Shown here piece after piece: positions 10,990-14,815 of a stretch of 15,207 bases of DNA. The stretch is taken from the NCBI GenBank assembly GCA_016176845.1, contig JACOWJ010000011.1, forward strand, positions 40,782-55,988, in the 5' to 3' direction. This DNA comes from Nitrospinota bacterium (lineage in GTDB: Bacteria > 2-12-FULL-45-22 > JACOWJ01). Numbering within the stretch: position 1 is the first letter of the stretch; each line of letters opens with the position of its first letter. The translations under genes and the position numbers were made by a program. A model generated the notes under the pieces. That model was not told where the DNA came from. It worked only from the letters and a program-made list of their open reading frames with translations, and ran no database searches.

Positions 10990-11391
10990 ATGAAGGAGAC
11001 AGCCAGCCTGTTCCGGCTCCTGGGGGTGGAGGCCCGGATCGGGATCATCGAGCTCCTCAAAGAGGGGCGCAAGGCCGTCAGCACCCTGGCCGAGGTCTTG
11101 GGAATCAGCCAGTCGGCCATCTCCCAACATTTACGGATCTTGAAGGCCGCTGGCCTGGTCCGAGACGAGAGGCAGGGCCAGTGGGTCTATTATCGGCTGA
11201 ACGAGGAGAGATTGGAAGCGTGCCGCGAGCAGGCCAACGAGGTTTGCAGTTGCGGCTGTCGCTGTGACGAGCCCCGCCTGGGGCAAGCGGGGCTCCCTGA
11301 GGGCCGGGAGGCCCTGGAGACCTACCGGAGAAAGCTGGAAGAGGAGCTCCGGCGGGTGGAGGAGAGGCTCAAGGCGCTGGAAGGGGGGTGA
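10990..11391 (+). CDS. ArsR-family regulator with Cys-rich coiled-coil tail
   Basis: A 133-residue winged-helix repressor. The N-terminal 75 residues are a standard ArsR/SmtB DNA-binding domain: RLLGVEARIGIIELLKEG, LAEVLGISQSAISQHLRILK (33-52, including the recognition helix), GLVRDERQGQWVYYRL for the wing. The classical ArsR metal-binding loop (ELCVCDL) is absent. Instead the protein extends with C78 and the cluster CSCGCRC (C86, C88, C90, C92), then a charged coiled coil (YRRKLEEELRRVEERLKALE, 112-131). The tail is unusual for the family and suggests that thiol, metal or persulfide sensing happens there (inference). It is the first gene of a compact operon: the next gene starts 7 nt after the stop, and its two small products carry the same Cys-cluster plus coiled-coil layout. 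Confidence 0.92.
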   Translation: MKETASLFRLLGVEARIGIIELLKEGRKAVSTLAEVLGISQSAISQHLRILKAAGLVRDERQGQWVYYRLNEERLEACREQANEVCSCGCRCDEPRLGQAGLPEGREALETYRRKLEEELRRVEERLKALEGG

Positions 11392-11593: not shown

Positions 11594-11923
11594 ATGTGCG
11601 AGATCCATGAGCGGAGAAGGGCCCATCACGGCCACGGGCATGGCCACAGTGGCTGTGACTGTGGGTGTGGTTGTAGCTGCGGCTGCAGCTGTTGTCGTTG
11701 CGGCTGTTGCTGCAGCGGAGAGCGGGGCGGGTGCTGCTGCGAGGGAGGCCATGGGGGCCACCGCAAGGAGGAGCCCGGCGCCGGTGAGCCCAGGTTCGTC
11801 CGGCGCTTTAAGAGCCCGGAGGAAGAGACCGAGGAGCTGGAGGAATACAAAAAGGAGCTCTCCCGGGAGCTCTCGGGGGTGGAGCGCCGCCTGAAGGAGC
11901 TGCGGGCCCAGGCCGAGGGTTAG
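11594..11923 (+). CDS. 109-aa Cys/His-rich protein with coiled-coil tail
   Basis: Residues 1-56 are extremely rich in Cys and His: 16 Cys and eight His, with HHGHGHGHSG followed by CDCGCGCSCGCSCCRCGCCC and a later GGCCCEGGHGGH. A charged linker leads to a coiled coil at about residues 74-107 (EEETEELEEYKKELSRELSG, VERRLKELRAQ). AGAGGAGG precedes the ATG. The Cys block has the look of a metallothionein-like or metal-storage segment, and the His-Gly run is common in nickel/zinc chaperones. The overall layout (low-complexity N-terminus, short coiled coil) slightly recalls DUF5320 proteins, but this is weak. It starts 16 nt after the 59-aa gene and ends 3 nt before the permease start, so it is part of the same operon. 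Coding is supported by the ribosome-binding site and the coiled coil rather than by a known family. Confidence 0.78.
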   Translation: MCEIHERRRAHHGHGHGHSGCDCGCGCSCGCSCCRCGCCCSGERGGCCCEGGHGGHRKEEPGAGEPRFVRRFKSPEEETEELEEYKKELSRELSGVERRLKELRAQAEG

Positions 11924-11926
11924 CCG

Positions 11927-12745
11927 GTGGGCCTCCTCCTGACCTTCTTTGGCTTCTTCATGGCCATCCTGGCCAATATGACGGGAATCGAAGGGGGGAT
12001 GATCTTCGTCCCCCTGTTCATCCTCCTGTTCGGGCTATCTCCCCAGGAGGCTGCCGGGGTGAGCATGGCCACGATGGTTTTTGGCCTGGGGGCCGGCTCC
12101 CTGGCTTACGCCCGTCAGGGGCGAATCGACGGCCGCCTTGGCCTGGCCTTGCTGGTGGTCTCTTTGCCTGGAACCATTTTGGGAGCCCTGCTCACTCCGC
12201 ACCTTTCCGCCAGGGCCTTGGAGCTTCTCCTGGGCCTGCTTCTGGTCCCTCTCGGCTTCCGGATCATCTTGCGCCGGGAGCCGGACAAGGCAGGGCCCGC
12301 TGGCCAGAAATCCTCTGAGGGTTGGAGAAGGGTCTGGAGGGACCGCGGAGGGACGGAATTTCGCTATGTCGTTCGCCGCCTGCCCCTCGGCCTTTTGATC
12401 TATTTGTTCGTAGGGCTCGTGGCAGGACTGTTGGGCATCGGGGGAGGGGCCATTAAAGTGCCCACGCTGATCCTGTTGCTGGGGCTTCCTCCCCACATTG
12501 CCGTGGCCACCTCTGTCTTCACGATGGCGTGGACGGCGCTGGCCGGAGGGCTCGCCCACGGGGCTATCGGGCATGTCCTCCCGATCTATGTCCTGTACCT
12601 GGTTCCCGGGGTATTGCTCGGATCCCAGGTGGGTGCCCGGCTGGCCCGGAGGGTCCCGGCCGCTACCCTGATGAAGTTGTTGGGAGGGATGGTCGTCTTG
12701 ATCGGGCTCACCATTTTGGCCAAAGCTTCGGGCCTTTGGGATTGA
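11927..12745 (+). CDS. TauE/SafE family membrane permease, GTG start
   Basis: A 272-residue inner-membrane protein of the TauE/SafE (formerly DUF81) family, whose members carry sulfite, sulfoacetate, thiosulfate and related organosulfur anions. The two-fold internal repeat is clear: MTGIEGGMIFVPLFILLFGL (near 18) matches LLGIGGGAIKVPTLILLLGL (near 167), each followed by a loop with A-VS or VATS and a further helix. Eight or so membrane segments are predicted, with a charged cytoplasmic loop at about 113-148. GTG at 11927 follows GAGGG by 7 nt and is only 3 nt after the previous stop, so translation is coupled. The substrate cannot be read from sequence; the Cys-rich partners and an ArsR-type regulator suggest a reactive sulfur or metalloid anion (inference). 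No terminator is evident before the convergent LysR gene. Confidence 0.92.
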   Translation: MGLLLTFFGFFMAILANMTGIEGGMIFVPLFILLFGLSPQEAAGVSMATMVFGLGAGSLAYARQGRIDGRLGLALLVVSLPGTILGALLTPHLSARALELLLGLLLVPLGFRIILRREPDKAGPAGQKSSEGWRRVWRDRGGTEFRYVVRRLPLGLLIYLFVGLVAGLLGIGGGAIKVPTLILLLGLPPHIAVATSVFTMAWTALAGGLAHGAIGHVLPIYVLYLVPGVLLGSQVGARLARRVPAATLMKLLGGMVVLIGLTILAKASGLWD

Positions 12746-12802: not shown

Positions 12803-13696
12803 CTACCGCAGCAGGCCTTCGACGGACCGGGCACACTCCAGGAAGGCCTCTACCAACGGCAGGGGGCGCTTGTCTCGGTGGGAGAGGATGAAAAGCGGGC
12901 GTTTGAAGGAGAGGCCTCTTACCGGGACCACCACCAGCTTCCCTTCGGCGATTTCGGAGAGGACGGAGAAGCGGGAGACGAAGGAGACCCCCAGACCGGC
13001 CGCCACCGTCTGCTTCACCGCCTCCGGGTTTCCCAGCTCCATGGCCGTTTTGACCTCTATTTTTCCCTCCAGGGCCTTCAGCGCCAGCTCCCGGGTGGCC
13101 GAGCCCGGCTCTCGCAGGATGAACCCCTCTCCCGAAAGCTCCTCAGGGCGGACCTCTCCCCGGCCTGCCAGAGGGTGCCCTGGGGCCGCCACCAGGATCA
13201 GCTCGTCTGTCAGGTAAAGCTCGGCCTTGACCTCGCCTTTGGCCTCCAGCTCCCCTCCGACGAACCCCAGGTCGATCTCATTGCGAAGGATCTTTTCCGC
13301 CACCTGGCGGGTGTTGGCGATCTCCAGGAAGACCTCGATGCCGGGATAGCGGGCCTTGAACGCGCCCATGATCCGGGGTAGCAGGTAGATGCCCGGGGTG
13401 GTGCTGGCCCCGACGTGCAGATGGCCTCGTTTGAGCCCCTTGAGCTCCCCGATCGCCTCCCGGGCCTCCTCCAGCAGGGCCATCACCCGGTGGACGTAGC
13501 CCTCCAGGACCCTTCCCGCCTCGCTTAGATTGACTCGTTTGCCAACCTTCTCGAACAGGGGAGTCCCCAATTCCTCCTCCAGCTGCTGGATCTGCATGGA
13601 TGCGGAAGGTTGGCTCAGGTGGAGCTCCTGGGCCGCCCGGGTAAAGTTGAGGTGGTGGGCCACGGCCCGAAAGATCCTCAGTTGATGCAGGGTCAT
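12803..13696 (-). CDS. LysR-family regulator, CysL/CbbR-like
   Basis: A 297-residue LysR-type transcriptional regulator. The N-terminal winged helix starts MTLHQLRIFRAVAHHLNFTR and contains AAQELHLSQPSASMQIQQLE, the usual recognition helix. The effector domain begins near GHLHVGASTTPGIYLLPRIM and has the CysL/CbbR-like segments RQVAEKILRNEIDLGFVGGE, LILVAAPGHPLAG and ILREPGSATREL. Members of this branch often control sulfur, carbon or selenium-associated genes (family knowledge). An upstream in-frame start at 13753 exists, but GGAGGAG lies just before the ATG at 13696, and the domain begins there. The gene converges on the TauE/SafE gene and diverges from the small membrane-protein pair. A palindrome covers its own -10 region, so it is probably autoregulated. 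Confidence 0.93.
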   Translation of the reverse strand: MTLHQLRIFRAVAHHLNFTRAAQELHLSQPSASMQIQQLEEELGTPLFEKVGKRVNLSEAGRVLEGYVHRVMALLEEAREAIGELKGLKRGHLHVGASTTPGIYLLPRIMGAFKARYPGIEVFLEIANTRQVAEKILRNEIDLGFVGGELEAKGEVKAELYLTDELILVAAPGHPLAGRGEVRPEELSGEGFILREPGSATRELALKALEGKIEVKTAMELGNPEAVKQTVAAGLGVSFVSRFSVLSEIAEGKLVVVPVRGLSFKRPLFILSHRDKRPLPLVEAFLECARSVEGLLR

Positions 13697-13706
13697 TGTA
13701 CTCCTC

Positions 13707-13743
13707 CAATCATTAGAATACATGATTGTAACCATCAAAACAA
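13707..13743 (-). promoter_or_regulatory. LysR promoter with perfect 7-8-7 palindrome
   Basis: CAATCAT (13707-13713) and ATGATTG (13722-13728) are perfect inverted repeats 8 nt apart, containing a T-N11-A core as in LysR boxes. On the minus strand, TTGTTT (13738-13743) and TATTCT (13715-13720) are -35 and -10 boxes 17 nt apart. The -10 lies inside the palindrome, so binding would block the LysR gene's own transcription. Confidence 0.65.
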
Positions 13744-13753
13744 AGTATTTCAC
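13728..13753 (+). promoter_or_regulatory. Shared 26-bp upstream element, copy 1
   Basis: GTAACCATCAAAACAAAGTA and the following TTTCAC match 14337-14362 at 21 of 26 positions. It adjoins the right arm of the LysR palindrome and lies about 80-100 bp upstream of the first small membrane-protein gene. TATCAT at 13757-13762 is a possible plus-strand -10 box just after it. Confidence 0.5.
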
Positions 13754-13830: not shown

Positions 13831-14016
13831 ATGAAAGGGCACGTTGGCTTACTGGAGGAGTATGCTTCGGAGGTAGAGACGGAACTTCAAGAAGAAGGAG
13901 AAGTCAAGGCGGAAAGGCGCATCAACTCCCTGTGGGACTATCTTTTCCTGGCCGAAGCGCTCGCCATCTTTGCCACGCTGGTGGCCTCGCTGGTGTCGCT
14001 GGTGTTGAGGAGCTGA
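13831..14016 (+). CDS. 61-aa small membrane protein (tandem copy 1)
   Basis: Family not recognised. The product has an acidic, helical N-terminal half (LLEEYASEVETELQEEGEVK) and one C-terminal membrane helix (LWDYLFLAEALAIFATLVAS then LVSLVL), so it should be anchored with most of its charged part in the cytoplasm. AGAGGAGG lies about 8 nt before the ATG at 13831. A longer frame from 13768 exists but lacks a ribosome-binding site. The gene diverges from the LysR gene and carries the shared 26-bp element upstream, so it is a likely LysR target. Its second half is duplicated 186 bp downstream. Small one-helix proteins like this often serve as partners or regulators of membrane transporters, but nothing in the sequence shows which one. 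Confidence 0.7.
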   Translation: MKGHVGLLEEYASEVETELQEEGEVKAERRINSLWDYLFLAEALAIFATLVASLVSLVLRS

Positions 14017-14194
14017 GGGAGGGTCGGGAAAGGGGTTGTCGCGGCGAAGCGGAACTTGAAAGAAGCGGAACTTCAACAAAAAGGAGAAACCAAGATGAAA
14101 GGGTACATGAATTCGCTGGGGAACTATCTTTACGTGGCCGAAGCATTCGCCATCTTTTCCACGCTGGTGGCATCGCTGGTGTCGCTGGCGCTGT
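13881..14194 (+). repeat. 186-bp-period tandem duplication
   Basis: Positions 13881-14010 and 14067-14194 align without gaps at a constant offset of 186 bp. Similarity begins with GGAACTTCAA and runs through the membrane-helix coding part (for example GCCATCTTT, CCACGCTGGTGG, TCGCTGGTGTCGCTGG are shared). Shorter copies of the GGAACTT-CAA motif occur at 13805-13813 and 14049-14058. What is coding sequence in copy 1 (the Glu-Gly-Glu codons, AAGGAGAA) supplies the ribosome-binding site of copy 2. Confidence 0.8.
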
Positions 14195-14550: not shown

Positions 14551-14815
14551 ATGATCACGATCAAGCTCTACATGAACCGGCCCATGGGGGAGACCTGAAA
14601 GAGCCACCTGGAGGCGGCCAATTGCCTCAAGGACCTCTACGGGGTAGAGATCGAGGTGGTGGGAAAGGGGCTCCTGGGGAGGGGCGTGGGCAAGGAGGGG
14701 CCGCGCCCCCCCGGCAGTGGCGGTCAATCAGGAGCTCCTGACTGAGGGCCGCCGGCTCTCCTACGAGGAGTTGGAGGCAGCGGTGAAGCGAGCATTGGGG
14801 GAGGAACGGTCATGA
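14551..14815 (+). CDS. Candidate selenoprotein, thioredoxin-fold-like (in-frame TGA; +1 shift at C7)
   Basis: ATG at 14551 (GGAGG runs upstream) opens a frame reading MITIKLYMNRPMGET, then TGA at 14596-14598 (codon 16), then KSHLEAANCLKDLYGVEIEV. If TGA is read as selenocysteine, the product looks like a thioredoxin fold: strand ITIKLYM, loop with U16 at the start of a helix, strand VEIEVV, a Pro-Pro before strand AVAVNQEL (the cis-Pro position) and a last helix (SYEELEAAVKRAL). The original frame ends at 14743-14745. After the seven C at 14706-14712 a +1 shift gives the C-terminal part, ending at TGA 14813-14815 and overlapping the next gene as ATGA. With one C fewer the protein would be 87 residues. 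A hairpin fitting the bacterial SECIS rule follows the TGA. The alternative is a pseudogene with two lesions. A Cys homologue with Cys at position 16 would settle it. Confidence 0.6.
14607..14632 (+). promoter_or_regulatory. Candidate bacterial SECIS hairpin
   Basis: CCTGGAGGC (14607-14615) pairs with GCCTCAAGG (14624-14632): nine positions with one G-A mismatch, and an 8-nt loop GGCCAATT. The loop starts 17 nt after the TGA and opens with GG. The published rule for bacterial SECIS elements (from memory: apical loop 16-37 nt after UGA, with G among its first two bases) is met. Confidence 0.55.

Follow-up and report, generated by a model that had tools for sequence, protein, structure and literature searches.

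The window, by which we mean the whole 15,207-nucleotide stretch of DNA analysed, contains a small gene interrupted by a 'stop' codon that is invisible to annotation under translation table 11 and very probably encodes a real selenoprotein. We hold with high confidence that UGA codon 16 of this gene is read as selenocysteine (Sec) and that the product is a member of a family of the TsoC kind. The gene begins with an ATG at position 14551, immediately preceded by a purine-rich ribosome-binding site (aggagggaggggga), and its product of ~87 residues, translated with one +1 frameshift bridged, reads MITIKLYMNRPMGETU KSHLEAANCLKDLYGVEIEVVGKGLLGRGVGKEGPRP / PAVAVNQELLTEGRRLSYEELEAAVKRALGEERS. The features of the window are collected in Table 1.

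Table 1. Features of the window, with positions counted from its first letter
Feature	Position	Strand	Basis and remarks
ArsR/SmtB-family regulator	10990..11391	+	weak relation to TsoR (58 bits; cut-off 115)
His/Cys-rich small protein	11594..11923	+	sequence; between ArsR regulator and TauE; no Pfam/NCBIfam match
TauE/SafE permease	11927..12745	+	PF01925, 163 bits
LysR-family regulator	12803..13753	-	best model selenium metabolism-associated LysR, 234 vs cut-off 250
TsoC-like selenoprotein gene	14551..14815	+	~87 aa; NF045708 score and profile from relatives; spans one +1 frameshift
In-frame TGA, proposed Sec16	14596-14598	+	codon 16; GxxU motif, N-terminus of helix 1; aligns with TGA in L020, L021 and L028 and with Cys in L036
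Bacterial SECIS-like hairpin	14607..14632	+	loop 17-18 nt after TGA, first loop base G
C7 run, frame shifts +1	14706-14712	+	TsoC homology in different frames on either side
Next gene, 112 aa	14812..15150	+	ORF; signal peptide-like N-terminus (predicted exported); C-terminal ...FFKGCL

The protein, with U replaced by C and the frameshift bridged, scores 49 bits against the NCBIfam model NF045708 (TsoC, "NEPxGxxU motif selenoprotein"), for which the cut-off is 45. With the TGA translated as X the score is 41.9, so the passage of the cut-off is borderline. Because the cut-off is passed, the family is one already known, and the statement of the original prediction that this was not a known selenoprotein family does not stand. 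TsoC was described in 2025 (Haft and Tolstoy 2025, mSystems, doi 10.1128/msystems.01417-24, as cited in PMC13188914). The window protein resembles TsoC in size, in the GxxU motif, whose U is likewise encoded by TGA at that codon, and in the thioredoxin-like pattern, whereas it differs in having NRPMGETU in place of NEPxGxxU (N, P, G and U are kept, and E is replaced by R), in the absence of an insertion of 4-5 residues, and in that no Tso operon, with TsoA and TsoB, is visible before the contig runs out.

In 386 genomes distributed across the domain, a search returned two clear TsoC genes (L020 in G166 and L021 in G286) and a weaker relative, L028 (G286:C202; MTKATITLYSNDPMGKRU...); the corresponding codon is TGA in all three. 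A fourth relative, L036 (G286:C316), has Cys at the Sec position (NEPMGRKC). The three TGA-bearing relatives belong to phyla other than that of the window. The homologue comparison that the original prediction had proposed thus yields Sec or Cys at the codon 16 position in all five aligned members, the window protein included. In phylum-level searches around G000, G286 and G166 (two genomes each), no further close relatives were found; in tblastn searches of plasmids, the window protein had no match, nor had the Cys form or TsoC, and TsoB matched only ordinary DsbD. The sole return of the genome-contigs scan, L019, is a chance match to what is presumably a TatD-like hydrolase, judging from a reading of its sequence, and the weak matches L022, L023 and L026 were set aside as ordinary CxxC thioredoxin-like proteins.

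Against a profile built from the four relatives only, the frameshift-bridged window protein scores 56.9 bits with the TGA as X and 63.5 bits with the TGA as Cys, while the highest score among 2000 shuffles is 11.7 bits. Coding across the TGA is therefore far above chance, in agreement with the proposal of an in-frame TGA at codon 16 behind a ribosome-binding site, with sensible protein sequence on both sides. The source genome encodes the complete Sec machinery, as the original prediction had suggested looking for. Specifically, selA (608 bits), a full-length selB (378 bits), selC, the tRNA-Sec with anticodon TCA (70 bits), and selD (L048, G000:C23:19348-20271; 381 bits) are all present, the last with an in-frame TGA of its own at the active site (GAGUACK). 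Since these genes occur in the same genome, the organism very probably decodes UGA as Sec. Homology and genome content together suggest that codon 16 would be decoded by the genome's own SelA, SelB, SelC and SelD, aided by the adjacent 3′ hairpin.

The SECIS-like hairpin claimed 3′ of the TGA was found. It consists of the stem GAGGCG/UGCCUC and the loop GCCAAU, or the loop GGCCAAUU when the G-U pair at the end of the stem does not form, and its folding energy ranges from -13.0 to -16.4 kcal/mol; the minimum free energy (MFE), -16.4, corresponds to a z of -2.2 against dinucleotide shuffles. All four TGA genes (the window gene, L020, L021 and L028) have a qualifying hairpin, one that lies shortly 3′ of the TGA and has G among its first two loop bases. 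On the same contig, 15.5% of 1447 TGAs (about 1 in 6) are followed by a hairpin that qualifies, and 5.7% by one with an MFE of -12 or lower, so that the hairpin does not discriminate and, on its own, is weak evidence.

These background figures are the point in favour of a coincidence, in which an ordinary stop closes a 15-codon peptide and the hairpin arises by chance. The homology that crosses the TGA, the aligned column of TGA, TGA, TGA and Cys in the relatives, and the complete Sec machinery of the genome all argue against it, leaving such a coincidence a scarcely credible account of the locus. The break in the reading frame further downstream invites two other explanations. The original prediction had not included the +1 frameshift at the C7 run, 5′ of which TsoC positions 2-38 are matched and 3′ of which positions 57-86 are matched in a different frame. 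Past the run, frame 0 reaches an unrelated stop shortly downstream, while the C-terminal half, AVAVNQELLTEGRRLSYEELEAAVKRALGEERS, is read in the +1 frame and terminates at a TGA (14813-14815); this stop shares bases with the start codon of the next gene, the ATG at 14812 (TCATGA).

The broken frame, together with the single genome copy from which it has to be judged, would fit a pseudogene, that is, a real selenoprotein family and a legitimate Sec TGA in a copy that a real +1 frameshift has killed. We regard this as unlikely: the two halves separately keep clear homology to the four-relative profile (28 bits for the frame-0 part alone and 24 bits for the part 3′ of the run), there is no further stop, the ribosome-binding site and the TCATGA coupling to the next gene are intact, and a one-base change in the length of a C7 run is typical of sequencing, of assembly or of a recent event. 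It is also conceivable that programmed +1 frameshifting at CCC-CCC-G yields the full-length protein. Proline C-runs are a known type of +1-prone site, the run here is of that type, and the frame resumes exactly past it; however, this would require two recoding events, none of the relatives found changes frame at this position, and a simple indel suffices as an explanation, which makes programmed frameshifting highly improbable. Most probably, the frameshift reflects a single-base homopolymer error or a recent indel.

To obtain a structural model, AlphaFold2 was given the five-row alignment with the frameshift bridged and U as C. The model (pLDDT 79) comprises E3-9, H14-30, E33-39, E55-58, E61-65 and H71-81 (b-a-b-b-b-a), and residue 16 falls near the beginning of the first helix (residues 14-30). 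In VIA-align comparisons, thioredoxins are matched with Z up to 9.7 and SelW-type proteins with Z of about 8; the best Foldseek match is MtH895 (E 5e-3), and the ArsD structures 3mwh and 3kgk are also among the matches. The predicted structure thus supports a thioredoxin fold and backs the earlier claim of a thioredoxin-like protein with U16 at the N-terminus of helix 1, while the function is left undecided by the modelled fold. The window protein shares its fold with MtH895 (PDB 1ilo) and other small CxxC thioredoxin-like proteins, and the Sec column aligns with the second Cys of their CxxC motif, but the first Cys is replaced by Gly and the second by Sec.

Within the family, the window protein is 37% identical to L028, 34% to L036 and 32-33% to both TsoC genes, and the L028-L036 pair shares 54% identity. 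With identities so close, the grouping of the window protein with L028 and L036 rests on motif, gap and context rather than on identity, and it is suggested as at most a broad subgroup. Specifically, the three share the PMGxxU/C motif (LYxNxPMGxxU/C in its longer form) and lack the insertion of 4-5 residues (YYALDLP region) that is present in both TsoC genes, and L028 resembles the window gene in its TauE and LysR neighbours, whereas L036 adjoins arsA and arsP. Both L028 (32 bits) and L036 (27.5 bits) score below the NF045708 cut-off. The subgroup without the TsoC insertion may be a separate branch.

The window gene is preceded by the regulators, the His/Cys-rich protein and the permease listed in Table 1. 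The His/Cys-rich protein (HGHGHGHSGCDCGCGCSCGCSCCRCGCCC) is, judging from its sequence, possibly a metal- or metalloid-binding protein. Just 5′ of the TsoC-like gene lie two 133-nt direct repeats (13875-14007 and 14061-14193) that are 81% identical, and each encodes a small hydrophobic peptide (...YLFLAEALAIFATLVASLVSLVLRS / ...YLYVAEAFAIFSTLVASLVSLAL). The product of the next gene carries a Cys near its C-terminus and has no above-cut-off match in Pfam or NCBIfam. The right end of the window (G000:C16:40782-55988) is the end of the contig, 57 bases past this gene, and the rest of the operon is therefore unseen. TsoB was not found above cut-off in the source genome, which is 68% complete and gave only partial DsbD-like matches.

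The TauE/LysR context is common to the window and only one relative, L028. At the L028 locus in G286, two TauE-like genes flank L028 together with a divergent LysR gene, and the locus continues with a multihaem cytochrome, TsoB (868 bits, two TGAs) and TsoC. The LysR there is 41% identical to the LysR of the window. The downstream TauE-like gene is named from its similarity to the TauE of the window (about 23% identity, E 5e-11), and the upstream one we take to be TauE-like from a reading of its sequence. L036 lies directly downstream of arsP and arsA on the same strand. The Cys form thus occupies the place after arsP and arsA where arsD would be expected.

Sec would take the place of the second Cys of CxxC and Gly that of the first (GxxU), so that the protein would depend on a lone selenol at the N-terminal end of helix 1. 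A single selenol with no neighbouring resolving Cys would suit a monothiol-like carrier or reductase, and the selenol would form a mixed selenyl-sulfide or bind a soft substrate. Such a substrate, which the protein would handle on behalf of the TauE/SafE permease with LysR in control, could be reduced sulfur, selenium or a metalloid thiolate. With the transporter and regulator neighbours suggesting the substrates, we tentatively infer a one-selenol carrier or reductase of thioredoxin fold that works on sulfur, selenium or metalloids with the TauE permease. It is similarly conceivable, if short of probable, that the window protein, L028 and L036 form a branch of their own within the TsoC kind, untied to the Tso operon, and serve as selenol carriers for a transporter, TauE/SafE or else ArsA/ArsP, that a selenium-linked LysR regulates.

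A serious rival to the function proposed here is an ArsD-like metallochaperone, in which the subgroup would not be a redox enzyme and would carry soft metalloids, such as As(III) or Se species, to ArsA/ArsP or TauE. The gene arsD often stands downstream of arsP and arsA, and the position of the Cys form just 3′ of those genes is consistent with this reading, as are the ArsD crystal structures among the Foldseek matches and the ArsR regulator and His/Cys-rich protein in the window. ArsD shares with the window protein a thioredoxin-like fold. However, no member of the family has a Pfam ArsD match at E<=1, and the vicinal Cys pair that ArsD carries is absent. ArsD also ranks under ordinary thioredoxins among the structure matches, and the link to the arsenic genes comes from one locus only. 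We therefore judge an ArsD-like role possible but doubtful.

With our analysis, the TsoC kind comes to include a diverged branch that has a Cys counterpart. If the window protein and its two closest relatives are indeed carriers in a separate branch, TauE permeases would gain a dedicated soluble selenoprotein partner. The occurrence of the TauE/LysR setting in two phyla makes the function of TsoC accessible to transport and tolerance assays.
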